NCBI GenBank assembly: GCA_943736015.1
Contig: OX031066.1
Location: 24,536,127-24,600,126, forward strand
DNA length: 64,000 nt
Reading direction: 5' to 3'
Origin: Tridacna crocea
Lineage: Eukaryota; Mollusca; Bivalvia; Cardiida; Cardiidae
Shown in pieces: positions 551 to 27,955 of this stretch (position 1 is the stretch's first letter; each line of letters starts with the position of its first letter). The position numbers were made by a program, and so were the translations under genes. Below the pieces are notes generated by a model, which was not told the DNA's origin, made no database searches, and saw nothing but the letters and a program-made list of their open reading frames with translations.

Positions 551-778
551 TTAACCCTTTACGCCATAAGGCATTTCTATGGTATCTCTGGGTGACCCTA
601 AATAACAGCAAGGGTGAAGCCTTTTTTTATGTGTATAGGACACCTTTTGATAGCTAGAAAACATTGTGACAAAAGGTGAAATTGCTCGTCACGAGCAATT
701 TCACCTTTTGCCACAATGTTTTCCAAAAGCTCCTACAAACAATGCGTAGAAACGAGTATCTATGGAGTAAAGGGTTAA
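551..778 (+). mobile_element. Family B TTAA-flanked hairpin MITE
   Basis: The element is flanked by TTAA at both ends (551-554 and 775-778) and has inverted ends CCCTTTAC and GTAAAGGG. A hairpin of about 60 bp at 659-720 folds around GCTCGTCACGAGC. The TTAA target and CCC..GGG ends fit piggyBac-type non-autonomous elements. There is no coding capacity. Other copies are at 15005, 34708 and 50206. Confidence 0.8.
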
Positions 779-944
779 AGAAGACAATTAATAAGTTATT
801 AAACTTCTTTTTCCAAATTAGGATCTGTTTTAATGATAGTTTTTTTTAGCCACTAAACCTATTGTTATCTCATTAAATTTCAAACCATAAAGTTTCACCG
901 AGTTCAAAGTCCTAATTGCCAGAAAATTCTACACAGCATTTAAA

Positions 945-1045
945 AGTGTAGATCCAAGATCAGGTTGCATGTTAAGCGCAGTCTGAGCTTTATCTACACT
1001 GTAGGGAAAAGCTCATTCAGTCGTGTTTAGTAGTAGATTGGTAAA
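945..1045 (-). repeat. Family C hairpin, degraded copy
   Basis: A weak hairpin 'GTGTAGATCCAAGATCAG...' pairs with '...CTTTATCTACACTG', then 'TCATTCAGTCGTG' follows as in family C read from the minus strand. Confidence 0.5.
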
Positions 1046-1126
1046 TACACAACCCATTGCATTTTCACGCAATATGTATGATTACTTTACTCTGTAACAC
1101 GAATACATGTATTTGACATTCTTGTT

Positions 1127-1354
1127 TTAACCCTTTCCCAAACAATCCCTGGTTTTTACGGGTCAGGAATAAAAGCTTTTTGAAAACATTGTGGGAAAAG
1201 GAGAAAATGCTGGTAACCAGCATTTTCTCCTTTTCCCACAATGTTTTCTACCATGTCGTACAGAAAAAATATCTTTTTAGCAACTTTTAATTTGTCACCT
1301 GCAAAATGCTTTCAATTTAGTGTGGTCCAAAATTTGCAGTTTGGGAAAGGATAA
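1127..1354 (-). mobile_element. Family A TTAA-flanked hairpin MITE
   Basis: The left end is TTAA then CCCTTTCCCAAAC and the right end is GTTTGGGAAAGG, with the right TTAA mutated to ATAA. The central hairpin at about 1184-1250 has arms ending in AAAATGCTGG/CCAGCATTTT. This is the commonest family here. Plus orientation is defined as CCCTTTACC, then a TTTTAGACT segment, then GCATTTGCAGACGAC, then the hairpin. Confidence 0.8.
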
Positions 1355-1384
1355 AAAAAAAAGTCTAAACTAACATTTAAGCCA

Positions 1385-1906
1385 CGATCTATGAAAAGGG
1401 GACTCAATGCATCTGCAAAAAGTTTCAACTCATGTCAGCCTGCGCGGAGTTTTTGCACTTGATCAGTTTTCTGCTTTTCATGGGCCCATTTTACCTCCAA
1501 ACCCAGCCAATTGTAAGAAAAGAAATTAACTTTATGATTCCTTAATGCATAATGTCTACCTCGGTATAAGAAACCGCGGATATGGATTAAACCCCCTTTT
1601 GACAGAGGAGAGCCAATATTGCATATCAAGGGACCAGCCTACTTCCACATCCTGTCAACTTAAAAAAAAAAAGAAATTTATGAATCCATAATCATGTGAT
1701 ATATAGCTTCATAGTATAAATCGCCCAGATGCATTTAGCTTCTTTTTGCTATAGCAGGGCTCACAATGCATGCCAAGGGACCAATTTATCTACAGATCCA
1801 GTAATTTGGAGGCGAAACATGAAATTTATTCATCCATTATCATGTGATGTCTAGCTTGGTATAACACAAGAGGGCTATGATGTCCCTGCATCACTCCACT
1901 GGCTTT
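1385..1906 (+). repeat. Family D element with tandemly repeated tail
   Basis: It begins like other D copies ('GAAAAGGGGACTCAATGCAT', then a decayed GCAAAAAGTTTC / AGCCTGCGC hairpin half). The D tail, containing 'AAGGGACCA', 'CATAATCATGTGAT' and 'TAGCTT', is then repeated about three times with a period near 145 bp. Confidence 0.6.
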
Positions 1907-2137
1907 TTAACCCTTTCCCAAACGACAAACTTTTGGACTAGACCAAATTGAAAGTATTCGCAGACGACAATTCAACTCATGCTGAAAAGATGATTTCTGT
2001 CTATGATAGGGTAAAAAAAACATTGAGAGAAAAGGAGAAAATGCTGGTTACCAGCATTTTCTCCTTTTCCCACAATGTTTTCAAAAGGCTTCTATTCCAG
2101 ACACGTAAAAAACAGGGATTGTTTGGGAAAGGGATAA
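1907..2137 (+). mobile_element. Family A TTAA-flanked hairpin MITE
   Basis: TTAA (1907-1910) is followed by CCCTTTCCCAAACGAC. The hairpin at 2021-2082 is nearly perfect, and the right end is GTTTGGGAAAGGG followed by ATAA. The ends are of the CCCAAAC subtype. Confidence 0.8.
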
Positions 2138-2198
2138 GCCTTTACCACAAGATTTAAAGTGCTCATGACCCTGAAAAAGAGGGCTTTTGAAAACAATG
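2138..2198 (-). repeat. Family A fragment, outer third only
   Basis: The segment 'CCTTTACCACAAGAT', then 'GACCCTGAAAAAGAGGGC' and 'TTTTGAAAACA', is the right end of A in reverse, cut off before the hairpin. It abuts the preceding A copy directly. Confidence 0.6.
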
Positions 2199-2420
2199 AA
2201 TACTGTCAGGCAATACAAGCATGTTTATTCATTGGCATGAAAGCAAAAAGTTCTTGGGAAAAAACACCCTGAATGATAGAATTCTTACTACTTTGAATTT
2301 AATATACCACTCATATAAGCAGAATTATTAGCATCAAAATGAATCACTCTCTCTGAAAACAGAATGATTTTATTGAAAAACTTAAATATCTAGCACGAAT
2401 CATGTATCACTGTAGTTTGA

Positions 2421-2484
2421 TAATCAAGGGAGGTAAATAGTAACAAAATTTATAGTTTACAACAGGAGTTATTTCCCTTGATTA
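2421..2484. repeat. Short inverted repeat around GGGAGGTAA / TTATTTCCC
   Basis: TAATCAAGGGAGGTAA (2421-2436) is mirrored by TTATTTCCCTTGATTA (2469-2484), with one mismatch and a 32-bp spacer. Confidence 0.6.
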
Positions 2485-2502
2485 ATGTTCAAATGAAATG
2501 AC

Positions 2503-2594
2503 TATATCGTCGGTGTACTTCCAAAACCTCGTAACTATATATACAGCTTGTTACAAGCTGTAGTTACGAGGTTTTGAAAGTACACCGACGATAT
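2503..2594. repeat. Family I hairpin
   Basis: A palindrome of about 92 bp: 'TATATCGTCGGTGTACTT' pairs with '...AGTACACCGACGATATA', and the centre is CAGCTTGTTACAAGCTG. Related hairpins lie at 36262, 36459 and 53443. Confidence 0.8.
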
Positions 2595-2606
2595 ATGGAA
2601 GCCCAT

Positions 2607-3000
2607 GTTAAACCTGTGATCCCTGTGATGGGGCTAATTTTGACCCCAGGCCTATACCATGAAGAACTTGTGAAAGGTCCATTAGATGAAGCTACAGGTC
2701 AAATTCAGTAGCTATGAGCTTTGTTGTTTCAGAGAACAAAAAATTTTGAAAAAGTTAGCTTTTTTTTCAGTTTTATTGCCATGACAATTAGATTTTTTTG
2801 AAGGGATCAAATTCTTTCCAAAAATTCTGAAGACGACCATGGTATGATAATTTTTGTGAAGTTTCATCACATTTGGATGGGTAGTTTCAGAGAAGAAGAT
2901 GTTTGAAATAAAAGTTAAAGCACGCACGGACGGACACACGCACGTGCGACGGACACCAGGTCATGACATTACACTGCTGGCTTTAGCCCAGTGGAGCTAA
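2607..3000 (+). repeat. Long bivalve-type repeat, family L, 3' part
   Basis: It contains a 'GATGGGGCTAATTTTGACCC' and 'CAGG' segment, then 'TTTCAGAGAAGAAGATGTTT', a GGAC-rich stretch, and ends '...AGTGGAGCTAAAAAAT'. This matches the plan of the full L copy at 30660-32684. From memory such repeats are common in bivalve introns and intergenic DNA. No coding sequence is seen. Confidence 0.6.
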
Positions 3001-3002
3001 AA

Positions 3003-3240
3003 AATAAAAAGTAAGAATCCATAATTGTATAATGTCTACCTTGCTACAATGAATCGCAGAGATTCAGTAAGCCCCATATTTATAAAGCAGGGCTGACCTG
3101 CATATCAAGGGACCATTCTACTTCCAGATCCGGTCTATGTAAGGAAAAAAATATGAATCCATCACTATGTGATGCCAAGCTGAGTATTACAAAACCCGGA
3201 GATGCCCTAAGCCCTGTTTTTGACAAAGCAAAGCTCATTT
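3003..3240 (+). repeat. Family D tail tandem array, second block
   Basis: Two further copies of the D tail ('ATCCATAATTGTATAATG...', 'AAGGGACCATTCTACTTCC') follow each other, as in 1470-1906. They are separated from that array by A, I and L elements. Confidence 0.55.
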
Positions 3241-3413
3241 GTTTTGTTTTTAAACAACTTTGTTTACGTGTCCAATGGTAAAAGAACTGAACATGAATTT
3301 AGCCCGCTATAAAAGGACTTCTTTGTCAAATAAATATCGCACAATATTGCGTGTTATTGCATGGAATTTCGTGATTACAATTTCCAAATGCTAGATAGTA
3401 CTCTAGCTTTGAC

Positions 3414-3620
3414 TTAAACCTTTACCACACAATACCGACTTTTAACGACCCTGAGAAACAAGCCTGCTGAAACCATTATGGAAAAAGAAGAAAATGCTGG
3501 TTTCCAGCATTTTCTCTTTTTCCGACAAATTTTTCTACCCTTTCCAAAACAATTTCCATATTTTTTGTTGTCTGCAAGTGCTTTCAATCTAGACTGGTCC
3601 ATAGTTTTATTGTTTGGAAA
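3414..3620 (-). mobile_element. Family A hairpin MITE, right end lost
   Basis: It starts TTAA then ACCTTTACCACAC. The hairpin is at 3479-3530 and the far part 'GTCTGCAAGTGCTTTCAATC' is kept. The terminus is cut at TTTGGAAAC, where family D begins. Confidence 0.75.
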
Positions 3621-3628
3621 CCTGTGCG

Positions 3629-3849
3629 CTATGCTCTGTAAAAAGGGGGCTTAATGCATTTGCGAAAAGTTTCGACCCTGGCCAGCCGGCGCGGAGTGCG
3701 TGGGCTGATCTCGGGGCCGAGACTTTTCGCTATTGATCAATATTCTGAACTATCAAAGGCCCAGTCTACCTCACGATTAAGTCGTTTGTTACAAAAAGCG
3801 GATATTAGGGATGTCTTGTTTGGTACCATGAATTAATGAGATGCATTAA
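3629..3849 (+). mobile_element. Family D element, tail interrupted by family A
   Basis: The left end is 'ATGCTCTGTAAAAAGGGGGC'. A partly decayed hairpin is at about 3661-3735, and the tail 'GGCCCAGTCTACCTCACGAT' follows. The tail ends at 'GAGATGCATTAA', where an A element has inserted at D's own TTAA. Confidence 0.65.
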
Positions 3850-4062
3850 CCATTTACCACCCAGTGACGACTTTTAACACCCTGAAAGAGAAGGCTTTTG
3901 AAAAAATTGTGGGAAAAGGAGAAAATGCCGATAACCAGTATTTTCTCCTTTTCCGACAATCTTTTCAAAACTTCTATTTCTCCTTTTCGAACAATGTTTT
4001 TAAAAGTTCAATTTCCCACAGTCGCTAAAAAACTGGGGATTGTGCGGTATATAGCGCGTTAA
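3846..4062. mobile_element. Family A element with two right ends
   Basis: It is flanked by TTAA on both sides (3846-3849 and 4059-4062). Both halves match the right half of A: the left reads CCATTTACCACCC with 'CCTGAAAGAGAAGGCTTTTG', and the right carries a diverged version of the same end. The TTTTAGACT/GCAGACGAC half is absent, so this copy is close to one large inverted repeat. Confidence 0.65.
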
Positions 4063-4105
4063 GCCGTCGAAAGGTTAATCGTTTCTTGCATTAAGCGCTG
4101 CTGGG

Positions 4106-4326
4106 TTAACCGTTTACAAAACAACAAAATTTTAGACTTATCCGAATCAGAAAGCACTTGCAGACAACAAAATAAACGTAACTCAAAAATTGAAACTTGT
4201 TTTCAGCAAGGTAGTGGGAAAAGGACAAAATGCTGGTTATCAGCATTTTCTCCTTTTCCAACAATGTTTTCAAAGGGCTTCTATCTCAAGTTCGTGAAAA
4301 CCAGGGATTGTTTGGTAAAGGGTTAA
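4106..4326 (+). mobile_element. Family A TTAA-flanked hairpin MITE
   Basis: TTAA (4106-4109) and TTAA (4323-4326) flank a 213-bp element with left end CCGTTTACAAAACAAC and right end GATTGTTTGGTAAAGGG. The hairpin is at 4210-4275. Confidence 0.85.
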
Positions 4327-4504
4327 GCCACAACAGGGAGTAATTCCACAGGTCTAAACGACTGTAGAGGTTATTAAAATGTATGGAAAGTCGTGGATCT
4401 ATTGCATACGAAATAAGCCTGTCACACAGAGTTCAGATTGTGTCCAGATATAGATATTTAGCTCTTATGATACCACGTTGGAAAAAAAAAACTGATAATT
4501 TTTG

Positions 4505-4574
4505 CGGACGGAGTAGATCAAGATCAGACTGCACATAACGTGCAGTCTGATCTATGATCTACACCCGTCCGATA
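4505..4574 (+). repeat. Family C hairpin
   Basis: 'GCGGACGGAGTAGATCAAG' is followed by ATCAGACTGCACATAACGTG and its complement, ending 'GATCTACACCCGTCCG'. The TTAA-type ends of C are not clear here. Confidence 0.65.
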
Positions 4575-4804
4575 CTACATTCCATAGGTCGACCAAAATT
4601 CTTTTTCATTCATAAAAGAATAATATTTACTGTCTGGGAAAATGTCTTATTTATTTTCTTAGTAGAAAAAGAGCTACCTAGGTAGTTTTATGGAAAAGAC
4701 AAAAAATATAATTTCTCGATATCATGCAAGTTATGGGATCGTATTTACAATATATTCTGGAGTCAATCCTTTTGCTTCATTCCAAAGCCGGGTATCTCAT
4801 TGGC

Positions 4805-5036
4805 TTAACTCTTTACAACACAACAAAATTTTAGACTTGTCCAAACTGAAAGCATTTGCAAACAACAAAATAAATGCGACTGAAAAATTGAAACTTGTTT
4901 TGAAGAAGCCTATTAAAAACATAGTGGGAAAAGGAGAAAATGCTGGTAACCAGCATTTTCTCCTTTTCCCACTATGTTTTTAACAGGCTTCTTTCTCAGG
5001 GTCTTTAAAAGTCGGGATTGTGTTGTAATGAGTTAA
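4805..5036 (+). mobile_element. Family A TTAA-flanked hairpin MITE
   Basis: Perfect TTAA flanks (4805-4808 and 5033-5036) enclose 224 bp. Left end CTCTTTACAACACAAC, hairpin at 4919-4983 with an almost perfect stem, right end GGGATTGTGTTGTAATGAG. Confidence 0.85.
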
Positions 5037-5114
5037 AACATTTACTTTAGTTTTTAGTTTCATATTTCATTTTTTTCCGCCAGCGAATAACACATAGACT
5101 GACGGTACAATAAA

Positions 5115-5595
5115 TAAAGGATGTTTGATTTTTTGCCGGTGAAATCGAAATTTATTTCATCAAGTGAACATCATCGGTAATATTTTCACGAGTGGCTGCT
5201 GCACCACTCGTGAGAATATTACCGATAATGTTCACTTGATAAAAAAATCGATCTTTCACAAAAAAAAAAAAAAAATCGATCTATTTTATATTTTTAAACC
5301 TTTCTGGGGGAAAATTAATCAAAACCCAGTACAGTTTTTTTCGGTTATTCCCCGTGGCGTACCCCCTGCACATAGCAACGCATAACAATATTACGTCAAG
5401 CGCAAGAAATGTACATAAGTTACATCATATTTCCATCTGGTTGCGAGGCACACACATTATTTCTAGCTAACTAGTGCGTAGGAATAACTGTTTCCGACTT
5501 CATGTGAAGAGTTACAAAAGAAAAATCGTTTTCTTTTTTTCACCGGTCGTAACCATGAAATATTTCTCAATAACCTACCGGAAAAAAAAGAAAGT
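5115..5595 (+). mobile_element. Family H hairpin-tail element
   Basis: A long hairpin at 5139-5259 has arms 'AATTTATTTCATCAAGTGAA' / 'TTCACTTGATAAA' and a loop near GAGTGGCTGCTGCACCACTC. It is followed by a tail with 'CCCCGTGGCGTACCCCC' and 'ATTACGTCAAGCGC'. The tail resembles the better preserved copies at 5628 and 39300 but is more decayed; its TGACGTCA site has become TTACATCA. Confidence 0.7.
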
Positions 5596-5627
5596 AACAG
5601 ATTGTCATTGTCTTTTGGTAAAGAAAT

Positions 5628-6076
5628 AGAGGATATTTGTTTTTTTCGGTGTAAGATCGAAATTTATTTCATCGAGTGGACACCATCGGTAATATTTTCA
5701 CGAGTGGCGCAGCCACGAGTGAAAATATTACCGATGGTGTTCACGAGATGAAATAAATTTCGATCTTTCACCGAAAAAAACAAATTTTCTATTTATTTTA
5801 TGCTTTTAATCCTTTCTGGGAGGAGCTTTATCAAAATTCAGTACAGTTCTTTTCCCTTATTCCCCGTGGCGTACCCCTCCCGCATAGCAACGTTACGTCA
5901 AGCGCGTGAAATGTAAGGTATATGACGTCATATTTCCCATCTGGTTGTTAGGCACGCGCAATTTACCTAGGCAACAAGAACGTGAAAATCGGTATTTTCA
6001 CTGGTGGTACCAGTGTAAGATCGAAAAATATTTTCACTGCTATTTCTCGATATCCTACCGGAAAGCATGAAATAAT
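5628..6076 (+). mobile_element. Family H hairpin-tail element, best hairpin
   Basis: The hairpin at 5637-5783 is about 147 bp with a loop of only a few bases (GAGTGGCGCAGCCACGAGTG). The tail of about 290 bp carries 'CCCCGTGGCGTACCCCTCCC', a full TGACGTCA (5923-5930) and ends 'GAAAGCATGAAATAATG'. No open frame spans it. Confidence 0.75.
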
Positions 6077-6220
6077 GATGCCTTATACACTGGATACGGG
6101 GTACAGAATGCAAGCGTTGAGGGGATACCAAAGACTGATAACATTGTGAAGCAACCCATTTTCCTCTGTTGAGTAGCCAACATCGAACGTCATGATCACA
6201 CGCGCAGAATGATTGAATGT

Positions 6221-6516
6221 TGTTTTACCCCGTTTTTAACATTATCTTAGTTATATAACGGCGGCCAGAGCACCTATCAATGCTTTCCTGTGAGTCTCTC
6301 TTACCAGTACTCCGCACAATATTCTTTCCAAGCCACTGGCTGCTTTTCAACATAGCCATAGTAGAAAAAGATGGTCAGCGGCGGTAAGAGACTCTGAGAA
6401 ATGAATCCTGTCGCAATGACTGTCATCATTCCTCGGAAAGAAACTTGCCGAGCCAGAGATCAAACCAGCGACCCCTTGTCCTTAACTTCTACACGCTAAC
6501 GACTGAGCTACAGAGA
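6221..6516 (-). mobile_element. tRNA-derived SINE, family J
   Basis: Read on the minus strand it starts with a tRNA-like head: A-box-like GTAGCTCAGTCGTTAGCG and B-box-like GCTGGTTTGATCTC. The body follows with 'CCGAGGAATGATGACAGTC', 'GTACTGGTAAGAGA' and a 3' part 'ATAATGTTAAAAACGGGG'. It is not a tRNA gene, since the T-arm and acceptor do not pair. Confidence 0.75.
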
Positions 6517-6540
6517 CTAGGTACAAGAAATACACAGTCT

Positions 6541-6740
6541 GGGCTCGTATTCATCAACCATTCTTAAGAACAGTCCCGGTCATTTTCTCCAGAATATTCT
6601 ACATTTGAAAGTAACATAACTTCTGATTGGCTAAACCATTTGGTTTAGCCAATCAGAAGTTGTGATACTTACAAATCTAGAAAATCTGAAAGAATAAGGC
6701 AAAGAATATTCATAAGAATGGTTGATGAATACGTTCCCTG
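6541..6740. mobile_element. Family G fold-back element, complete
   Basis: The whole 200-bp unit is an inverted repeat: 'CTCGTATTCATCAACCATTC' pairs with 'GAATGGTTGATGAATACG'. The centre (6629-6659) is GATTGGCTAAACC/GGTTTAGCCAATC. Other copies are at 17685, 26180, 28590, 53985 and 54222. Confidence 0.8.
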
Positions 6741-6744
6741 GCTG

Positions 6745-7016
6745 ATCACAATTTGAGATGTTTGTTAAGCTTCACGTGAATATGTTCATATCCCATGGAT
6801 CCATAGGCAGGGCTGTCATTTTTCGTTTTTCTTTCAAAATTAAGTCATAAATGAGTGTAAAATTACAAATTCAAATGAGATACGCTATAGTTGTATACTG
6901 TGACATTTTACTCGTAAACTGGGCTACTGTACCCCTGGGGCTAAAGACAGAAAAAAAACCGGAATTACTTGTGGCCTGTAGATCCAATCTTACGGTTTAA
7001 AGATAGAGCTTTAAAT
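6745..7016. other. No recognised feature
   Basis: AT-rich spacer between G and the GA microsatellite, with no repeat or gene recognised. Confidence 0.5.
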
Positions 7017-7048
7017 AGAGAGCGAGAGAGAGAGAGAGAGAGAGAGAG
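7017..7048 (+). repeat. (GA)n microsatellite
   Basis: About 15 uninterrupted GA dinucleotides. Confidence 0.95.
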
Positions 7049-7195
7049 TGCACGTTCTGAGCAATCTTATCGTAAATCAAGCCTTGCACTTGCCACTTAT
7101 GGCTTTTACTGCAAAATGGATAAAAAAAAAACCAAACAATGCAACACTAACTTTTAGAGCAAAGCATTTTGATAGTTTTGTAGTTTTTTTTAAGT

Positions 7196-7240
7196 GTAGA
7201 TCAAGACCAGACTGCTTTGAAGGCACAGTCTTCTCTTTAA
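7196..7240 (+). repeat. Family C hairpin, degraded
   Basis: 'GTGTAGATCAAGACCAGACTG' minus one end base is followed by an imperfect complement 'CACAGTCTTCTC'. The element ends are absent. Confidence 0.45.
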
Positions 7241-7351
7241 TTTACATGTACAATGACCAGCACTTGGTACATATACCCGGCAAAAGTTGTTGCATACTCG
7301 AACTTAAAAGATGCTTGGGTCACCTAGTGAAAATATTCATAGCTATGCTCC

Positions 7352-7430
7352 AGCGAAAGGCAGGCTTGGTGCATCCCCGTGATCCATGGTACAAAGCAAG
7401 CCATCATATACTTGTGTAGAGCTCCAGATA
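7352..7430 (-). repeat. Family D tail fragment
   Basis: 'GCTATGCTCCAGCGAAAGGC', 'TGCATCCCCGTGATCCATGG' and 'AAGCCATCATATACTTG' match the outer D tail seen at 18430-18512. Confidence 0.5.
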
Positions 7431-7599
7431 AAATATATTAATGACGTTTTAAATCCGTTATTACTCTTCCAAACCCTATTTTGTGGGTTCTTATTTTAAT
7501 TGTTTCGATGAGACGATTCTAATGAGCACCCATAACATAGGGTTTAGTAGAGAATAACTAATATTTTCAATAATGAAATCAAAATCATTCCCTCTATCT

Positions 7600-7828
7600 T
7601 GAACTCTGCTTATACATGTACAGCCATAATATCCACTTCTTGTAATAATTGACTTCATCATGAGGTAGACTGGTCCTTGGGCATACAATAAATTGACTGA
7701 TAGCGAAAAGTTTCGGCACAGGTTAGCCTGCGCAGATTCCGCAGGCTAACCTGTGCCGAAACTTTTTGCAGATGCTATATGCAGATGTGAGAAGACCCCC
7801 TTTCATACAGCACGGCTCTCATTTATTT
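7600..7828 (-). mobile_element. Family D hairpin element
   Basis: The tail 'GAGGTAGACTGGTCCTTGGG' comes first, then a hairpin at 7705-7769 (GCGAAAAGTTTCGGCACAGG, loop around GCGCAGATTCCGC), then the end 'CCCCCTTTCATACAGCACGG'. Confidence 0.7.
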
Positions 7829-7829
7829 C

Positions 7830-8500: not shown

Positions 8501-8504
8501 TAGG

Positions 8505-9816: not shown

Positions 9817-10060
9817 ATACAGTCAGACGTAACATTACCCTAACAAATTTAGTCATATATTTTTTAAATGGATAACGTTTATTTAGTATATTTTTAAGCT
9901 ATGTACGGACCCACTAGACAAGTAACAAGCTCTTTTGTGAGCCAAATGAAAGGATGGCCACGAGAAAACTTTCCGAAGCCCAGAAAAGGCTAATTGTTGA
10001 CATGAGTAATGCTGGACTAAGCACATGGGCTATTGTTGGTCAGGTTGATCTGACTTTATA
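9817..10060 (+). mobile_element. Tc1/mariner deletion derivative, family P
   Basis: The left end is ATACAGTCAGACGTAA and the right end is TCTGACTTTATA, with TA at the borders. About 244 bp long, it keeps only the N-terminal transposase segment (9954 onward). A second copy at 29976-30259 has the same internal deletion, which suggests a MITE lineage rather than two independent decays. Confidence 0.75.
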
Positions 10061-12118: not shown

Positions 12119-12119
12119 C

Positions 12120-15004: not shown

Positions 15005-15233
15005 TTAACCCTTTACCCCGAAAGGCATTTCTGTGGTATCTCTAATTGACCATAAATAAGAGCAAGGATAAAGCCGTTTCTTATGTGTATATGACACCTT
15101 TTGGTAGTGTAGAAAACATTGTAGCAAAAGGTGAAATTGCTCGTGACGAGCAATTTCACATTTTGCCCCAATGTTTTCCAAAGGCTCATACAAGCAATGC
15201 GTAGAAATGAGTATCTATGGAGTAAAGGGTGAA
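15005..15233 (+). mobile_element. Family B TTAA-flanked hairpin MITE
   Basis: TTAA (15005-15008) is followed by CCCTTTACCCCG. The hairpin is at 15113-15175 with centre GCTCGTGACGAGC, and the right end is GGAGTAAAGGG with TTAA mutated to TGAA. Confidence 0.8.
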
Positions 15234-19012: not shown

Positions 19013-19045
19013 AATGATCGGCCGAGTCATTATACCTATGCATAC

Positions 19046-20140: not shown

Positions 20141-20234
20141 TGCAGTACAATCTATTTTATGTTTATTGCTTAATGTAGATTCTCATTCCTCAACAAGGAC
20201 CAATGTAAATGTTTGTTGTCTTTAAAATAGGTAA

Positions 20235-20532: not shown

Positions 20533-20814
20533 AAAATAGGTAAACAAATACCTCTACGTCTCAGGATGGTGAAAGAGTAAGTCAACGAACTAGAGCTAGA
20601 TTGGGTTCATTTCCCTTTTCTCCTCGATTTTCTTTTAAAATAACGTGAATAAATAACCCTCGTTCGTTGTTCTCATTGGGGAATATGACCAATTATGGTA
20701 GTGACTGAAATTTTTCGGGAAAAAAATCTCAGAAATTTCTTTGAAATTACCATGTTTGAAGACACACACATACGTCACGCAGCCTATCTTCTCTGTTTAA
20801 ATTGTTAACCCTTT

Positions 20815-21010
20815 ATCTGCTCCGCAAGACTCAATGACCTTTTGCGGACATTGTAGATGATCAGACTGCACAGAACGTGCAGTCTGATCTTTGATCTACA
20901 ATATCCGATACAGAAAAAAGTTTGTAAAAAAAAATTTTCAGTTTTTTTAATGTCGGCTTAAAAGGTTTTTTTCTTTTTTTAATTTGACTTATTTAGCAAA
21001 ATAAGGATCA
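20815..21010 (+). mobile_element. Family C TTAA-flanked hairpin MITE
   Basis: TTAA (20815-20818) then CCCTTTATCTGCTCCGC. The hairpin at about 20843-20909 has arms CAGACTGCACAGAA/CGTGCAGTCTG. The right half ends 'TAGCAAAATAAGGAT', a decayed version of the GGATAAGGG end at 30551. Confidence 0.7.
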
Positions 21011-21535
21011 AATAAGCATCGAAAACGACTAAAAAACGGGTTCTATTTATCGATGCATATGTCGAAAAATCAATCTTTAGACACTACAATGTTTCTTAAG
21101 CCCTCAGCACAAAACAGAATTACAGTCTATCTATAGTAAAATCTCTTGCAAACGGCAAATTAGATGTGGCTAGAATTATGAGATTTGTATGTGAAAGGAA
21201 AGAAAACGTTTCTCAGTGCTACGTCACATAACATAACCTCTCAATGCTACAAATGCACATTTTATAACTGCTCCGTGTTCCAGTTTGCACTGACTCCTTG
21301 CATGTATTCGTTTTCATCATAACCATTCCTTATTCTATACAGTATGCAAAAAGTATGTATCTGGAAATAAGCAAGGAATTTCGTGGAATCTCATTCCCCG
21401 CCGAAAAAAAAAAATTAACTCGACTGATGTGTAATTTTAAACGCTCCAAGTCCGCCATTTCGTATCGAATAAAAAAAAAAAGTATATATTGGCAGAATGC
21501 GTTATTGTCCACACATAAAAAAATGCACGAAAATC
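21010..21535. other. No recognised feature
   Basis: AT-rich. The longest frames (21298-21711 and opposite) run into the GGAC-rich L end and are not credible. Confidence 0.5.
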
Positions 21536-21539
21536 TGTC

Positions 21540-21715
21540 CAATGGCATTGGAGATATTTTCCCGATGGGACGGATGGTCGGTCCGACCGACGAACGAACG
21601 GACGCAGGGGGAGGGGGGAGAGAAGGACGAACGGACAGACAATTCGAGGACGACCGGACGGACGGACGCACAACGCTACAGCTATCTTCCTCCGCGTTCG
21701 GCAGGGGCTAAAAAA
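21540..21715 (+). repeat. Family L end fragment with GGAC-rich stretch
   Basis: A 'GACGGATGGTCGGTCCGACC' block with repeated GGAC/GAAC ends in 'GCAGGGGCTAAAAAA', resembling the GGAC-plus-GAGCTAAAAA end of L at 2607-3000. Open frames on both strands here come from the tetranucleotide composition. Confidence 0.55.
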
Positions 21716-21744
21716 TGGATATTCTCAGTTAGAACCTTATCATC

Positions 21745-21955
21745 ATGCTAATAAGCTCGACTCACTGACCTTATGCAGACAATAACCTTATGCGAATCAC
21801 GATCAGACTGCACAGAATGTGCGATTTGATGTGAATCTATATTGTCTGTGAAAGAAACATTTTTTTTCTCTAAAAACAAGTTTCAAATAACATTATTTTG
21901 GTTTTTGCTCTCGGCTTGAAGTTTTATCTAACTTATTAACTAGAAAAAGTGTTAG
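21745..21955 (+). mobile_element. Family C hairpin element
   Basis: 'CTCGACTCACTGACCTTATG', then the hairpin GATCAGACTGCACAGAATG with partly decayed pairing, then an AT-rich tail. It abuts the next A element at TTAG. Confidence 0.55.
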
Positions 21956-22182
21956 CTCGTTACCAAACGACAAACTTTTAGGTTTGTCCAAATCGAAAGC
22001 ATTTGCAGACGACAAAATAAAAGTGACTGAACATTTGAAATCTGTTTTGTGAAGGATAGAAAACATTGTGGTAAAAGGAGAAAATGCTGGTTACCAGCAT
22101 TTTCTCCTTTTCACGCAGTGTTTTCTAAAGGCTTCTTTCTCAGGGTCGTCAAAAGTAAGGATTGTGTGATAATGCTGGTTAA
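21952..22182 (+). mobile_element. Family A hairpin MITE, first of a tandem pair
   Basis: The left end is TTAG then CTCGTTACCAAACGACAA. The hairpin is at 22064-22122, and the right end 'GGATTGTGTGATAATGCTGG' is followed by TTAA. Confidence 0.8.
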
Positions 22183-22364
22183 GATAAAAGTGCAATTTCA
22201 AAAAGTGACTGAACATTTGAAATCTGTTTTGTGAAGGATAGAAAACATTGTGGGAAAAGGAGAAAATGCTGGTTACCAGCATTTTCTCCTGTTCCTATAG
22301 TGTTTTCCAAAGGCTTCTTTATCAGGGTCGTCAAAAGTAGGGATTGTGTGGTAATTCGGGTTAA
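22183..22364 (+). repeat. Tandem duplicate of the family A hairpin half
   Basis: From 'AAGTGACTGAACATTTGAAA' onward this repeats 22021-22200 with a 182-bp period, including hairpin, right end, TTAA and the flanking GATAAAAGTGCA. It therefore arose by local duplication that included flanking DNA, not by a second insertion. Confidence 0.75.
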
Positions 22365-22421
22365 GATAAAAGTGCAGTTTAAAAAAAAAATGGTCGAAAC
22401 ATCTAGTAAAGAAGTGGACCG

Positions 22422-22490
22422 TGTAGGTATATGATCAGACTGCGCCTTCTGCACAGTCTAATCTTGATCTACATCTTGATCTACACACTC
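22422..22490 (+). repeat. Family C hairpin, first of a C cluster
   Basis: GATCAGACTGCGCCTTCTGC and 'ACAGTCTAATCTTGATCTAC' form the hairpin; the outer arm ATCTTGATCTACA is duplicated. Confidence 0.6.
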
Positions 22491-22730
22491 CTTTGAAGAA
22501 AATCGCAGTTCAGCGCCGCACAGTTCAAGAAGTAAAACCACGTTTAAGAAAGCGAAATCCATTTGACATAATTGAGGTTAAGGTCGGAAATTATTACCAC
22601 GGAAAGATTGCCGGAGGTAGCGAAAACATTTCTGACGAAATGTGAAAAGGTTGCGGTGCCCTCCCTAATGGCTTACCACGACCGGAAGCTAAATCCTAGC
22701 TAAATGCAAGGATAACTCATAGAAGATCTA

Positions 22731-22930
22731 TCAACCCTTTTCTCCCGCTATATGCCACCATTGATGCACTATTTCAGTAGATGTAGACAAAGATCAGATT
22801 GCAGATACGTGCAATTTGATCTTGGTATGGATTTTTTGTCTCCCTGTTATTGGTTTTAAGACATAGAACTCCAATTTAATTCGGAAAAAAAAAACAACAT
22901 TTTAAATTATCTAATTGCTAGTACTCGTAC
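22731..22930 (+). mobile_element. Family C-like hairpin element, diverged
   Basis: TCAACCCTTTTCTCCCGC, then the hairpin AAAGATCAGATTGCAGATAC / GTGCAATTTGATCTTGG, then a C-type AT-rich tail. Confidence 0.5.
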
Positions 22931-23087
22931 ATAATGTGTATTTACAGTAAAATGAATTTACAGTTTTCAACGGTCAAATGTATCAAGTCGACCTATATCA
23001 ACGGTCGAAGTTATAATCCACAGAAAATTAGAAATGTCATTGTTCTAATCTATAAATGTGACTAAACAAGTATTTAGTATATAGCTA

Positions 23088-23160
23088 AGATCAGACCATC
23101 AGTATTGTGCAGTCTGATCTTGATCTTTATCGTCCACAAAGCTCATATTTTCGCCTATTG
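23088..23160 (-). repeat. Family C hairpin
   Basis: 'CTAAGATCAGACCATCAGTA' pairs with 'GTGCAGTCTGATCTTGATC'; the outer end 'TCGTCCACAAAGCTCA' is in reverse orientation. Confidence 0.55.
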
Positions 23161-23166
23161 CACTAA

Positions 23167-23392
23167 TTTAATGCTTTAGCCTACTGGGCGCGACCCAAGG
23201 GCCTTTTGCAGACAGTGTATAGATCAAGATCAGATTACACATTCCATACAGTCTGATCTTGAACCCACACTGTCCGACAAAGAGATTATACTGCTACATA
23301 ATATAAACTTTGAAATAGCAGAATTTGAAGTATTCAACATAGACCTGAAAGTTTCAGTTTACTTATTTTGAAGACAAAACTCTAGCCTGCTA
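23167..23392 (+). mobile_element. Family C hairpin element
   Basis: 'GGGCGCGACCCAAGGGCCTT', hairpin at 23212-23278 (CAGACAGTGTATAGATCAAG ... CACACTGTCCG) and an AT-rich tail to 'TCTAGCCTGCTAAA'. Confidence 0.65.
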
Positions 23393-23484
23393 AATAAATT
23401 AAATGAAACTTCCAAGCCAACGGTGCAATAAGAACCCAAGTAATATTATTTCAAGCTTATTCTTATGTATTAAAAATATCTCCT

Positions 23485-23600
23485 AATCGGACAGTGTAGA
23501 TCCAAGATCAGACTGCACGTTTTGTGCAGTCTGATCTTGATCCACACTGTCCGTAAAAGGACAGTTATTCGCTTTCAGAAGCTAAGAGTTCAAGGGTAGA
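23485..23600 (-). repeat. Family C hairpin
   Basis: 'ATCGGACAGTGTAGATCCAA' pairs with 'TTGATCCACACTGTCCGT'; the centre is GACTGCACGTTTTGTGCAGTC. Confidence 0.7.
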
Positions 23601-23719
23601 AAGAAATACTAACGTGGAAGTATGAATGAACTCAGACTGACAGTCTTGACGGATTAACTGGAATTATATAGACTATCAATCCTTTCGTCGACAAGAGCGA
23701 ATTCTAGATCCGATAGCAC

Positions 23720-23778
23720 ACAGTGTAGATCAAGATCAGACTGTATAGAATATACAGTCTGATCTTTGATCTACGTTC
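23720..23778. repeat. Family C hairpin core
   Basis: GTGTAGATCAAGATCAGACTG, one of the arms, is followed by TATAGAATATACAGTC and its closing arm. The flanks do not match C ends. Confidence 0.65.
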
Positions 23779-23978
23779 TCAGCTTTAGTGTGAGACATAA
23801 TGACCATAAACGCAAGGAACTATGATACGCTTAGTCGTTTGTTACAGATAAAATTTTGCACTTCCGTGGATATGCCCGTCAAAGAGTAACGTTAATTATG
23901 GGTGGGTTATTCGACTATAAAAATCAAGTAACTAGTTAATGAAATGCATGCGTTACACTTCCAGCGCCAGTTATATCA

Positions 23979-24211
23979 ACTGTTTACCACACGTAAAAAT
24001 CTTAGGGCCAGCCCGCATAGCTCAGTTTGCATAGAGTAAGCAAAACAATATGGGAAAAGGAGAAAATGCTGGTAGCCATCATTTTCCTCCTTTTCCCACA
24101 ATATTTTCTACCCTATCAAAGTCAAATATTATCATATTAACAAGATTTAATTTGTTGTCTGCAGATGCTTTGAATTCGATCCAGCACAAAAATTTGGCGT
24201 TTGGTAAAGAG
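23979..24211 (-). mobile_element. Family A hairpin MITE with a replaced patch
   Basis: Left end CTGTTTACCACAC, hairpin at about 24050-24110, far part 'GTTGTCTGCAGATGCTTTGA', right end GTTTGGTAAAGAG then TTAA. The patch at 24008-24040 ('GCATAGCTCAGTTTGCATAG') looks like a SINE/tRNA head rather than A. Confidence 0.65.
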
Positions 24212-24224
24212 TTAACGCCATTTT

Positions 24225-24335
24225 CATCATAAGTTCAGTTACATCGCGGCGGCCAGTGCACTTATCCATGCATTCCTGGAGTTTCTCTTACCAGTATTCC
24301 CCACAAATTTGTAATACTCGAAAGGAAAGGAAATG
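24225..24335 (-). repeat. SINE family J, 3' fragment
   Basis: 'GCGGCGGCCAGTGCACTTAT', 'CCATGCATTCCTGGAG' and 'CTTACCAGTATTCC' match the 3' part of J at 6221-6320; the head is missing. Confidence 0.6.
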
Positions 24336-24354
24336 TTTCGAGCCACCATTACCG

Positions 24355-24700
24355 CCCGCTAGATGGCATTCTATAATACAGATCTATCTAATTTGGGCAT
24401 TCTGGGTATAGAACGGGACTACTTTTCTACACGACAAGTGTAACTTTGAATTTCAAACTAAAATAAATATTTACTCAATGAAACTCTACCTGATGCGCTT
24501 CATTCAGCTATGAGTAGCAGTTAAGAGAAAACTGGAGCTGAAACAGGCCTGATTTCTCTTCAAAAATATTGATAAAAGTCGTTTTCTCCATTGCTACCTT
24601 ATAGCGCGTATTACTACAATCCCCCCAACTTTGGGGGAGGGGGTTGATGTGTCATAGCAGACATATCGAATGTTCGAAGAATATGACATGTATACCGACA
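24355..24700 (+). repeat. Family T dispersed repeat, copy 1
   Basis: It starts 'CCCGCTAGATGGCATTCTAT'; later blocks are 'GGGACTACTTTTCTACACGA', 'GCGCGTATTACTACAATCCC' and 'TCGAAGAATATGACATG'. Copies: 28232, 34887 (partial), 49400 (reverse), 63595. No hairpin and no coding. Confidence 0.65.
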
Positions 24701-24704
24701 ACGT

Positions 24705-24800
24705 TCATGTCATTTACGGCCTAGTGCTACTATCTCGTCGGTAAGCATCGACGTTTTCGTAAAGGTTATTTGGCCAATCTCGGCAGATTCCGTCTTTTAA
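24705..24800 (-). repeat. Single monomer of the V repeat
   Basis: 'CTCGTCGGTAAGCATCGACG', 'TTTTCGTAAAGG' and 'TTGGCCAATCTCGGCAGATT' then 'CCGTCTTTTA' is the reverse complement of the monomer at 38502-38575. Confidence 0.6.
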
Positions 24801-24802
24801 TA

Positions 24803-25070
24803 TGGAGTGCAACACGCCAAAAGGTGCATTCGGACATTTGCGTAAAGTGTCGTCCCGGATTAGCCTGCGCAGTCCGCGCAGGCTAATCCGAGACGGCACT
24901 TTACAACTATATTAGATTTTGTGCTACAGTAGACTTGCTTAGAACAGAAAATCACATAAAGTCAGAAAGTGTCGTTTCGGATTAGCCCGTGCGGACTATA
25001 CACGCTGATCAGAGACGACACTTTACGCAAATGTCCGAATGACCCTTTTCGCGTGTTGAACTCCAATTAT
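24803..25070. mobile_element. Family E double-hairpin element, complete
   Basis: Terminal inverted repeats TGGAGTGCAACACGCCAAAA / TTTTCGCGTGTTGAACTCCA extend inward through GGACATTTGCGTAAAGTGTC. Two GC-rich hairpins sit inside: 24848-24905 (core GCCTGCGCAGTCCGCGCAGGC) and a decayed one at 24965-25025. A linker 'GTGCTACAGTAGACTTGC' lies between. Confidence 0.8.
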
Positions 25071-25089
25071 GAGAGTTAGGACCAGTAGA

Positions 25090-25150
25090 CAGCGAAGATC
25101 AAAAGATCAGTTTGTACATAACGTGTAATCAGATCTTTGATCTACACTTT
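25090..25150. repeat. Family C hairpin, degraded
   Basis: 'GAAGATCAAAAGATCAGTTTG' less one base pairs with 'TCAGATCTTTGATCTACAC'. Confidence 0.5.
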
Positions 25151-25228
25151 GAAATGCTAAAACCACGATAAAAAAAGTCACTACATAATGCAGAGAGGTC
25201 GTGATTCAAATCGTCGAAAATGTCGAAT

Positions 25229-25458
25229 TTAACTCGTTACCACATAATCCCGACTTTCAACGACCCTGGGAAAGAAGCCTTTAGAAAACATTGTGGGAAA
25301 AGGAGAAAATGCTGGTAACCAGCATTTTCTCCTTTTTTCCACAATATTTTCTACTCTTCTAAATTCAAATTTTAACTTTTGATTCACATTAATTTTGTTG
25401 TCTGCAAATGCTTTCAATTTGGACTAGTCTAAAATTTTGTCTTCTGGTAAAGACTTAA
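25229..25458 (-). mobile_element. Family A TTAA-flanked hairpin MITE
   Basis: Perfect TTAA flanks (25229-25232, 25455-25458). Left end CTCGTTACCACATAATCCC, hairpin 25287-25350, right end GTCTTCTGGTAAAGAC. Confidence 0.85.
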
Positions 25459-25493
25459 GATCAATTATCCTTTTGACAACGATAGACCTGCCA

Positions 25494-25574
25494 GGGTCCA
25501 TATTCATCAACTGTTCTTAAGTTTAACCAATCACAAGTCGTGTTACTAAGAATGGTCGGTGAATACCGACCCTG
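25494..25574. mobile_element. Family G element, internally deleted
   Basis: Both termini are present ('GGGTCCATATTCATCAACTG' and 'GAATGGTCGGTGAATACCGA') but much of both arms is lost; half of the ATTGG centre survives. Confidence 0.65.
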
Positions 25575-25576
25575 TT

Positions 25577-25788
25577 ATTTCACCCCGTGTTTTAACGGTC
25601 TGAAAAAAAATTCCAGGAAGAAGAGAAAATGATGGTTACTAGCATGTTCTACTTTCCAACAAGGTTTTCTACACTTTTTCATGACAAATCAGGATAATTT
25701 GAGCCACTTTTAATTTGTCGTCTGCAAATGCTTTTAATGCAGAGGAGATTTAAGAGTGACAAATTGACAAATTTTGTCGTCTAGGCAA
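25577..25788 (-). mobile_element. Family A hairpin MITE, decayed
   Basis: The hairpin 'AGAGAAAATGATGGTTACTA' / 'GCATGTTCTACTTTCC' is imperfect; 'TTTGTCGTCTGCAAATGCTT' identifies the far part. Ends are gone. Confidence 0.6.
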
Positions 25789-25849
25789 GTGTGAATCTAG
25801 ATGCATCGACCTTGAAAGCTGTGTACCCTTGACGAAACAATCACGTATT

Positions 25850-26080
25850 TTAACCCTCTATCACACAATGACGACTTTTGGTGACCCTGAGGTAGAATAC
25901 CTTTTGAAAACATTGTGGGAAAAGGAGAAAATGCTGGCAACCAGCATTTTCTCCTTTTCCCACAATGTTGTCTACCCTTCTCAAAATCAAATTTCGATTT
26001 TCAGTCACATTCATCTTTGTCGTGTGCAAATGTTTTCAATTTGGACCAGTGTATAGATTTTTCGTGTAGTAAAGGGTTAA
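25850..26080 (-). mobile_element. Family A TTAA-flanked hairpin MITE
   Basis: TTAA at 25850-25853 and 26077-26080. Left end CCCTCTATCACACAATG, hairpin 25910-25970, right end TCGTGTAGTAAAGGG. Confidence 0.85.
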
Positions 26081-26450
26081 TGACCCTTGGAAAGAAGACT
26101 TTTGAAAACATTGCTGGAAAAAAAAAAAGGAAAGAAAATGCTGGCCTTAGAAAGTTTTTTAAGCTGACAGAGAATATCTGGGCCCGTATTCACAAAAGCA
26201 TTCTTAGGAACATTCTCTGTCTTATTCGTGAAGATTTTCTGACTGTGAAAGTAATAGGACTTCTAATTGGCTTAACCAAACGGTTTAGCCAATCAGAAGT
26301 TCTGTTAGTTTCCACATTGACAAAATTCTGAAGAATTAGACAAAGAATGTTCTTAAAAATGGTTGGTAAATATGGACCCAGTTCATTCGTGTCAAGTTTT
26401 GCATTGGCATCTGCAGATGTTTGCAATTTGTCAATGTGTAAAACTTAACT
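26081..26450 (-). mobile_element. Family A element split by a G insertion
   Basis: Its left part 'GACCCTTGGAAAGAAGACTT' runs to the half hairpin 'AAAGAAAATGCTGGCC'. The far part 'GGCATCTGCAGATGTTTGCA' appears beyond the G element at 26180-26380. Confidence 0.55.
26180..26380. mobile_element. Family G fold-back element, complete
   Basis: 'GGGCCCGTATTCACAAAAGC' at the left and 'GGTTGGTAAATATGGACCCA' at the right; the centre is GATTGGC...ACGGTTTAGCCAATC type. It sits within an A element. Confidence 0.75.
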
Positions 26451-26559
26451 AAATTGGGCTTAACTAGGTATTGATAAGAGCAGTATTGGATCGGACTGTA
26501 CGGATGAACGGTCTGATCTTGGTTTTCTATCTTAACCTATGACATCAATACTGCGCCCA

Positions 26560-26622
26560 CTGTCTAGGCTGACATGGGTCGATACTTTTCGCAAATACAT
26601 TAAGCCCCCTTTTCACAGAGCA
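26560..26622 (-). repeat. Family D end fragment
   Basis: One arm 'AGGCTGACATGGGTCGATAC' and 'TTTTCGC', then 'CCCCCTTTTCACAGAGCAT'. The opposite arm is missing. Confidence 0.65.
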
Positions 26623-26661
26623 TTGCCCAAATCTTAGTGGTCCCCACCCCCTAGTGCCTTA

Positions 26662-27160
26662 ATTTAAAGGTGGCCCTTCAGATTCAAGGACGAAAATTTT
26701 ACAAAAGTACAAAAAAATCATCCTTATACTCCCAAAGCATTACAATTTTCTTTTATAAAACCCCGGTAGTCGAAAACCATCCGACAACCAGAGAAAGTAG
26801 TGATTCACTGCAGCCCAGGTCGACACCGACGGGAAAAACACGATCTATTTTTACATGAGCAACTCGCTCATTTATATACCGGAAATACACATACGAAGCT
26901 TCAAACATAGCGTCCGAAGATGACATTATGGAATATAATTACCTGTTTGTTATGTTATGGAATTTAAGCGTAGTTCGTCACGTGCCAGTCACTTAACATT
27001 CCCAAAATGCTTTTTTGATTTTTGGCGCGAAATCTAAAGATAACTTAAGAGGCTACGTAGCCTTTTAAGGGAATACCATCCAAAAATATAAATTTCAGTG
27101 ATATATATATATATTTTTAATTTGGTGTGATGTGAAAAACCGAAATACCCACTTTTAAGG
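26662..27160 (+). mobile_element. Family K element, copy 1
   Basis: It begins TTTAAAGGTGGCCCTTCAG and ends ATACCCACTTTTAA, so the ends are short inverted repeats (AGGTGG/CCCACYT) within TTAA. Internal blocks 'AAAACCCCGGTAGTCGAAAA' and 'AGAGGCTACGTAGCC' are shared with 48428-48974. A local (TA)n lies near 27103. Confidence 0.65.
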
Positions 27161-27670
27161 CAAATCTAAAATACATAATCCAAGGCCCTCTCAGCTCCAT
27201 GAAACAATGCAACAAAAGTGCTACTGAAAAAAAAAAAAAAATATTGGATTACCTTTGAAGGCAACGACCCCGAAGAAGTCTCGCAAACGTGTAAGAAATG
27301 GAAAATTTTGTCAGCTAGTAAAGAGCCAAAACAAATCTTGTTTACTACTTTGTTTTTGTCGCTATTCTTATCCGATAAAGCGGCGAGGTAATTTGTAAAT
27401 TATGGTCGTCTGCTGCGTAGAATGTTTGATTCGATATCATTTAACTGTCGTCTGCATCAGATGAAGAGGAAACAAGAGAGGAAGCCCCAGAGACAAGGTT
27501 TTCACTAACACTTACTTCAGACATGATGTTTTTCCCCCAACGTTCATCAGACTGTGAAATCGCGATTTTACGGACACGCAATATTTATGAATATGACGCT
27601 CGTTTTGATACATTTTTGGGGTGAGTAAAATTTGAAAAAAAAAAAACTTTAAAGACAGAAATTTGTGAAC
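27161..27670. other. No recognised feature
   Basis: AT-rich with poly(A) runs; no repeat family or gene recognised. Confidence 0.5.
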
Positions 27671-27955
27671 CACACACTGGCAAGGGGGCTTAACTCATTA
27701 CCAAACGACAATATTTTAGGCTTGTACAAATCGAAAGCATTTGCAGTCGACAAAATAAAAGTTACTGAAAATTTGAAATTGGTTCTGGGAAGGGTAGAAA
27801 ACATTGTGGGAAAAGGAGAAAATGCTGGTTACCAGCATTTTCTCCTTTTCCCAAAATGTTTTCTAAAGGCGTCTTTCTCAGGGTCATTAAAAGTAGGGAT
27901 TGTGTGGTAATGGGTTAATGCATGCCTGTGACACATTTATACCATACAAGTTTTA
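27671..27955 (-). repeat. Family D tail split by a family A insertion
   Basis: 'CACTGGCAAGGGGGCTTAA' before and 'TTAATGCATGCCTGTGACAC' after the A element join to the usual D tail (GGGGGCTTAATGCAT). Confidence 0.65.
27690..27917 (+). mobile_element. Family A TTAA-flanked hairpin MITE inside D
   Basis: TTAA duplicated (27690-27693 and 27914-27917); 220-bp element, left end CTCATTACCAAACGAC, hairpin 27804-27866 perfect, right end GATTGTGTGGTAATGGG. Confidence 0.9.

Follow-up and report, generated by a model that had tools for sequence, protein, structure and literature searches.

A 64,000-nucleotide stretch of Tridacna crocea DNA (contig OX031066.1; hereafter the window) carries copies of two short repeat families, A and B, whose central hairpins differ by changes that are matched on the opposite arm. 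Paired changes are usually read as evidence for RNA structure, and the question raised by this locus is what produces and retains them in a repeated element. The sequence-only reading of the interval 555..27913 had proposed either that selection maintains the fold or that fold-back copying re-made the arms of each family, and had held that ordinary neutral decay would not do this.

Hairpin elements of the window

Read directly, the A arm is GGAAAAGGAGAAAATGCTGG and the B arm ACAAAAGGTGAAATTGCTCG, with differences at positions 1, 2, 10, 15 and 19. In a numbering that runs outward from the loop (k), position 1 is k19, whereas positions 2, 10, 15 and 19 are k18, k11, k6 and k1, respectively. The stem is longer than initially described, as GAAAAC...GTTTTC also pairs, yielding 32 bp around 3 bases. 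Individual copies in the window comprise the following elements:

555..774, + strand: B element 1 (B1), flanked by TTAA on both sides (551-554 and 775-778); stem 657-688 with 692-723; -45 kcal/mol
15009..15231, + strand: B element; stem 15112-15178
34712..34885, + strand: B element, right end lost; stem 34815-34881
50210..50432, + strand: B element in which k19 is G-C and k1 has T opposite G; stem 50313-50379
1127..1350, - strand: A element, young A1 subfamily; perfectly paired stem 1182-1248
4810..5036, + strand: A element whose outer stem changed on both arms at k23, T-A to A-T; stem 4915-4981
39784..40007, + strand: k24-group A element (CACTG on the left); the right arm has C, so that k24 is unpaired here
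54985..55209, - strand: A element with a paired change at k24, T-A to C-G; stem 55040-55106
41335..41550, + strand: A element with the k24 letters of the 54985..55209 copy; stem 41430-41496
21957..22182, + strand: A element, first of a tandem pair; its arm differences from the twin are unpaired
22183..22364, + strand: A element, twin of the 21957 copy in the tandem pair; stem 22241-22307
25850..26072, - strand: A element; stem 25906-25972
27695..27918, + strand: A element at the right end of the interval 555..27913; stem 27797-27863
37467..37685, + strand: A element with 27-bp arms identical to the consensus and flanks 31% off

Altogether, 27 A copies were aligned in the window, alongside 4 B copies, of which that at 34712 lacks its right end; a looser count that includes fragments gave 37 A and 6 B matches. 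The A arm alone yielded 48 matches at ≤3 mismatches, against a mean of 0.00 in shuffled sequence. In the 1.05 Gb genome, families A and B are part of a single group of TTAA/CCCTTT MITEs, ~223 bp long with a central hairpin, bearing out the earlier suggestion that they are related, and their matches make up 15.9% of 200 kb sampled. Furthermore, we found two additional families with an intermediate hairpin, I1, whose flanks are A-like, and I2, whose right flank is B-like; exact matches to the intermediate core were located at 10,018 sites genome-wide.

The terminal inverted repeat CCCTTT...AAAGGG is present in B, A1, I1 and I2, and the ends of the main A group are mostly CTCTTT. In 40 A1 copies, including one in the window, the left end starts with TAACCC and the right end is AAAGGGTTAA followed by differing DNA, with TTAA at the right end in most of them. 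We take a terminal repeat starting with CCC to mark piggyBac; Kolobok elements likewise use TTAA. The element, at ~223 bp, encodes no transposase, and the 56-residue frame of an A element had no Pfam match. Nor did the 10 scanned among the 17 window reading frames of at least 110 residues (stop to stop; cutoff 0.01). Nucleotide searches (blastn) of B1 against phages and of A1 against plasmids gave no match, as did the exact 23-base arm against viral contigs, and the sole bacterial match to a 21-base arm was isolated, without a partner arm next to it. Predicted proteins of many animals presumably include translations of the A hairpin. A, A1, I1, I2 and B are probably lineages of one old, very abundant, non-autonomous piggyBac-like TTAA MITE.

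Paired changes between family consensuses

As the sequence-only reading had recognized, four of the five A/B arm differences (k18, k11, k6 and k1) are matched on the opposite arm, and all four are flips (G-C/C-G or A-T/T-A). Its description of k19 was likewise accurate, with A opposite C in the 555 copy and a G-C pair in the 50210 copy; the B consensus of 14 copies has G-C here, and A opposite C is a variant common to 5 of the 14.

The consensus stems of A, A1, I1, I2 and B are each paired at 32 of 32 positions, the 12 outer pairs included. They differ at k1, k6, k11, k18 and k24, each time on both arms, and four of these five pair changes are flips without a G-U route. The stems of I1 and I2 differ at k24 alone. 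Paired changes lie on at least three branches, namely A/I1, I2/B and again within A, where the k24 change recurs in a separate clade of 14 leaves. I1 is monophyletic on the flank tree (support 0.80), and its stem branch carries three paired changes. Paired events at the family level are few. Since five pairs differ, each on both arms, and the intermediate hairpin exists in two flank contexts, A and B cannot be separated by just one arm replacement.

The ratio of paired to unpaired changes was 5:0 between consensuses compared to 9:164 for private changes (Fisher p 1.4e-6; 7.9e-6 allowing one unpaired consensus change), where 16 of 19 I1 and 3 of 4 I2 copies had been retrieved by an exact core pattern that forces pairing of k0–k13. 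A covariation analysis of the stem yielded a score of 0.167 versus 0.022–0.037 for slid partners; none of 500 shuffles, which ignore relatedness, reached it, and the signal is carried almost wholly by the five pairs. The left flanks of A and B no longer align above chance, yet the stem is kept. The opposite picture, with arms decaying like flanks and one replacement separating the families, does not describe these data. The paired changes between the main lineages suggest that the fold itself helps the element to spread.

Decay of individual copies

Individual copies behaved differently from the consensuses. On a tree built from flanks only (93 copies), terminal branches showed 164 breaks versus 9 paired changes, and another count of changes in individual copies gave 228 versus 14; by this test, pairing is not kept in individual copies. 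Private changes were likewise mostly single in B (0 paired versus 23 single; 13 of 14 copies) and I1 (2 versus 18; 16 of 19 copies), and no frequent arm homogenization was found among the private changes of A, B and I1. Most arm changes within families are thus unpaired, so that single copies are subject to ordinary decay, and in this respect the sequence-only reading does not hold in its original form. Copy-by-copy arm correction is ruled out as the main cause.

Deeper in the tree, 7 breaks, 3 restorations and 4 paired changes fell on internal branches with at least three leaves; those with two leaves had 11 breaks and lacked paired changes. Changes confined to the right arm affected 11 of 89 A copies at k22 and 14 of 88 at k20, and some of them were common to a subfamily as G-T. 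One of the five A clusters of at least three copies (cluster 22, n=3), which lies outside the 5:0 count, has two broken pairs in its consensus, where its three copies disagree. Unpaired variants that groups of copies have in common, such as k19 in B and those at k22 and k20 in A, weigh against selection on the fold and slightly reduce our confidence in it.

These counts bear on the proposal that fold-back or template-switch copying re-makes the arms whenever a family is founded, without selection on pairing. The prevalence of flips without a wobble route is what such copying would produce, and the process is already in print (PMC8794818, PMC8604942), but private paired changes are few in the tree, in B and in I1, and the I1 and I2 stems differ by k24 alone. 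As a complete explanation we regard it as fairly unlikely.

Conservation of the arm sequence

Selection on the fold in spreading lineages, which we favor, is further addressed by the arm sequence itself. To exclude detection bias as a source of arm conservation, copies were chosen by their flanks only (n=94; 93 after removal of one double count). In the 94 copies, the inner arms were off consensus at 63 of 1838 and 61 of 1778 positions (3.4%) compared to 16% for the flanks, a roughly five-fold stronger conservation of the 20-bp inner arms. That the arm letters are simply less mutable is unsupported, as the flank spectrum predicts 575 inner-arm changes and 124 were seen (93 copies). The remaining inner-arm changes are dominated by C>T and G>A.

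On the flank-only tree, internal branches carried ~2.0 changes per site in the flanks versus 0.35 in the inner arms, and terminal branches 6.2 versus 2.7. Counted separately, singletons numbered 44 in 136 flank sites versus 5 in 40 inner-arm sites. The lower number of private inner-arm changes could reflect constraint on copies or unsampled lineages. Arm copying would not hold the arm sequence five-fold more conserved than the flanks. Since the inner arms have also kept their sequence, fold-back copying alone is insufficient, although it may be the origin of the paired changes.

Loop, centre base and RNA-type signals

Of 89 copies, 84 retain the T and 85 the A adjoining the centre, and 77 the centre base. 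Since the centre base thus varies almost like the flanks (12 of 89 copies) inside conserved arms, palindrome-centred gene conversion between copies is disfavored. Among the 12 changes in A, 8 are to the complement (p 0.065), as spacer inversion would give, and in B 3 of 4 (p 0.006, with the relatedness of the copies not removed). This tendency agrees with arm copying; against it, the A1 loop showed one singleton in three sites among 40 oriented copies, so that spacer inversion would be rare in A1.

The same positions resemble a DNA dyad, and the arms might be half-sites for a protein dimer, their symmetry arising from binding specificity rather than from folding. Conservation of sequence and not of pairing alone is in line with this, but if the half-sites were independent, some neutral changes would become fixed without a partner, whereas none of the five consensus changes is unpaired and the 12 outer pairs are intact as well; we give this reading little credence.

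Alternatively, the selected product could be a hairpin RNA, shRNA- or miRNA-like. Folding energies of four stems were -45 to -54 kcal/mol (z -12 to -16). Dicer products are ~20 bp in size, and the best-conserved part of the element, the 20 bp adjoining the loop, is about that long. The outer arms lean towards wobble types (28:14, p 0.04), probably owing to one subfamily. In contrast, single-arm transitions in the inner arms gave no RNA-strand signal (32:32 wobble versus mismatch types), the consensus changes are flips instead of wobble-route changes, and the window has no Rfam match. Despite the precedent of Made1/mir-548 (PMC1784062), we regard this product as very improbable.

Discussion

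Our data argue, on balance, for purifying and compensatory selection on the fold in the lineages that are still spreading, and not in each copy. The earlier proposal that selection maintains the fold is thus supported for the spreading lineages, in light of the paired consensus changes and the covariation, but not for the single copy. New copies would descend mainly from elements whose stem is intact and close to the required sequence, and the stem would thereby be selected at the level of the spreading element. As the pair flips have no G-U intermediate, a mutated arm was probably copied onto the other arm by intrastrand template switching, producing a paired change that selection would then retain; the stem would act either as extruded DNA or as RNA. 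As four of the five changes lack a G-U route, single-step arm copying may supply the four flips. More tentatively, the folded hairpin might be a selected transposition organ that works as extruded DNA and that lineages re-pair in RNA-like fashion, with dead copies recording the unselected mutation spectrum.

The element resembles piggyBac-type MITEs in its TTAA target, CCCTTT/AAAGGG ends, length of ~220 bp without room for a transposase and very high copy number, and differs from them in having an internal stem of 32 bp, better conserved than the remainder of the element, whose changes from family to family are paired. As with the Made1 MITEs and the mir-548 miRNA family (PMC1784062), it is a short palindromic MITE that could form a hairpin RNA, yet its hairpin forms an internal module set between flanks that diverge. 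Inverted repeats and RNA stems homogenized by template switching share the paired changes and possible spacer inversion, whereas private changes here are mostly unpaired (compare PMC8794818, PMC8604942), so that copying appears too rare to maintain the stem by itself. SINEs with conserved central domains also keep a central module between families with differing flanks (PMC3272025); those are retroelements, and the analogy is our own. For the haemoglobin genes of Lucina pectinata, PMC4732748 describes a MITE-like consensus 1 of 210 bp, the central 77 bp of which are self-complementary (96%); it has similar fragments in other molluscs, and no target duplication was found there. We liken it to the present element in length and self-complementary centre. 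Among the matches listed in our literature search, no title or abstract opening mentions this element or MITE families that differ by paired changes, and strings of element letters retrieved no papers.

A single genome here holds both a selected record, the families, and an unselected one, the dead copies. The origin of compensatory changes, by two mutations with selection or by a single arm-copying event, thus becomes countable. The paired changes further suggest that the internal hairpins of MITEs, usually viewed as passive, may aid their spread.

Structure and abundance of the element

The window (G000:C11:24536127-24600126, within a 1.05-Gb genome of 31 contigs) yielded four B copies, one of them truncated, and 27 A copies that were aligned. 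Both families measure ~223 bp and share one layout: TTAA, a CCCTTT or CTCTTT end, ~100 bp of left flank, a 32-bp stem enclosing 3 bases, ~50 bp of right flank, AAAGGG and TTAA. Together, A and B matches covered 15.9% of the bases in twenty 10-kb stretches from contigs C1 to C7, a sample that takes in one tandem array. Three arrangements of copies were observed:

G000:C1:25000001-25010000 (stretch L011), this tandem array, unit ~1.67 kb, with the same A element at identical scores in each of six units
window 50210-50554, a degenerate A copy directly adjoining a B element, with TTAA between the two
window 41611-41820, an A copy with one extra base in each outer arm (ACTGCTGGG / CCCTGCAGT), a possible paired insertion

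A search of the accessible literature found no publication with the element's letters. One mollusc MITE, 210 bp long and palindromic over its central 77 bp (PMC4732748), may be kin, judging by its description.

Paired changes between families

The five arm differences between A and B proposed by the sequence-only reading, four of them matched on the other arm, are real and can be read directly in the sequence; each of the four is a pair flip. At the fifth place the consensus of 14 B copies has G-C, giving 32/32 stem pairing, and A opposite C is common to 5 of the 14. The consensus stems of A, its young subfamily A1, the intermediate families I1 and I2, and B are each paired at 32/32 positions. 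They differ at pairs k1, k6, k11, k18 and k24, counted outward from the loop, with both arms altered at every one; five right-arm changes placed at random would agree in place and letter with a chance of 2e-8. Across 70 hairpins (58 distinct, picked for few gaps) 96.3% of cells were paired, and the covariation score was 0.167 versus 0.022-0.037 for controls in which the partner columns were shifted by one to three positions, these cells being interdependent and mostly derived from the five family changes.

Clustering 143 near-full A matches by their flanks resulted in five clusters of at least three copies, three of which carry the A stem, perfectly paired. A four-copy cluster showed the letters of B at k1 and k6 and those of A at k11 and k18, with a fully paired consensus and some additional single changes among its members, and the consensus of the three-copy cluster 22 was unpaired at two positions, where its members differ from one another. 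Genome-wide, exact matches to the core of the intermediate hairpin number 10,018 (reversed control, 0). Of 20 such sites examined, 16 were read as I1, three as I2 and one as neither: this element (L081, G000:C1:2361565-2361915) combines the core with a k18 flip, G-T at k19, other flanks and a GGTGTTAA end, and is perhaps a further family. The I1 flanks are A-like, with one member (L063) retaining the right flank only, and a fourth I2 copy was located in stretch L024. Judged against 500 letter shuffles, with I1 and I2 sets chosen mostly by core sequence, flank similarity was z 11.4 (left) and 8.7 (right) for A-I1, 3.6 and 8.1 for I2-B, and 1.1 and 4.6 for A-B. Based on these flank similarities and the intermediate hairpins, A and B look like opposite ends of one lineage, with the k1/k6 changes on a different branch from those at k11/k18.

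Tree building by FastTree and parsimony from 135 flank columns is rough. On a wider flank-only tree (A copies, 16 of 40 A1 and 19 I1), I1 was monophyletic (0.80) with three paired changes on its stem branch, and k24 underwent a second paired change in a 14-leaf A clade. Branches with at least three leaves additionally carried seven breaks and three restorations, and two-leaf branches 11 breaks.

Loss of pairing within families

The sequence-only reading's picture of matched arm changes breaks down inside the families. When 93 A copies were placed on a tree, changes on terminal branches mostly broke pairs, with 164 breaks versus nine both-side changes to a new pair, besides four both-side changes without pairing and four restorations; the wider tree of A, A1 and I1 gave 228 breaks versus 14 paired changes. 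Leaving out poor stems, we counted 23 single-arm and no paired changes in 13 of 14 B copies, and 18 and two, respectively, in 16 of 19 I1 copies. By eye, the arm differences between the tandem A twins at 21957 and 22183 are likewise unpaired. Breaks far outnumber paired changes; therefore, single copies shed pairing much like neutral DNA.

Conservation of the inner arms

In 94 copies picked by flank profiles only, 3.4% of sites in the inner arms (the 20 bp nearest the loop) were off consensus versus 16% in the flanks, with 9-12% in the next 7 bp of stem. Inner-arm changes numbered 124, versus 575 predicted from the flank spectrum. On the flank tree of the 93 A copies, flanks accumulated ~6.2 terminal and ~2.0 internal changes per site and inner arms 2.7 and 0.35, so that the inner arms are held most strongly on internal branches. 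Singletons among 40 A1 copies comprised five in 40 inner sites versus 44 in 136 flank sites. We read the low inner-arm change on terminal branches and in A1 singletons as master lineages hidden in terminal branches; alternatively, it may reflect constraint acting on the copies themselves. The T and A flanking the hairpin centre were unchanged in 84/89 and 85/89 copies and the centre base in 77/89.

Origin and maintenance of the fold

The ratio of paired to unpaired changes was 5:0 in the consensus stems versus 9:164 in private changes (Fisher p 1.4e-6; 7.9e-6 if one unpaired change is allowed). If the mutation process is the same in dead and spreading copies, this contrast suggests that spreading copies are under selection for pairing. 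The pairing rule is not strict, as seen from unpaired variants that several copies share, at k19 in B, on the right arm at k20 and k22 in A, and in cluster 22. We therefore lowered our weight on selection of the fold in spreading lineages from moderately to marginally better than even, and slightly raised its rivals. Predicted folding energies of four stems were -45 to -54 kcal/mol, and the window held no match to Rfam families. Single-arm transitions of wobble and mismatch types stood at 32:32 in the inner and 28:14 in the outer arms. These observations fit a role of the stem as DNA and as RNA alike.

Pair flips have no possible G-U intermediate. In addition, the centre base often turned to its complement (8/12 changes in A, p 0.065; 3/4 in B, p 0.006), although the A1 loop hardly varies. 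Both features fit occasional template switching, from which the paired variants may arise. Such a source of paired variants is described for RNA genes (PMC8794818) and inverted repeats (PMC8604942). Among the matches listed in a literature search, no paper had paired changes between MITE families as its subject.

The window also contains hairpin repeats unrelated to this element:

6637, 28683, 54323, repeat CTTCTGATTGGCTAAACC
5197, 5707, 39375, repeat ATCGGTAATATTTTCACGAGTGG
30373, repeat GTGTAGATC...GTGCAGTCTGATC
24861, 34168, 42461, 43982, 50728, repeat AGCCTGCGC...GCGCAGGCT (11 hairpins compared)

By eye, the two subtypes of the AGCCTGCGC...GCGCAGGCT repeat likewise seem to differ by paired changes, and the pattern may therefore be general.
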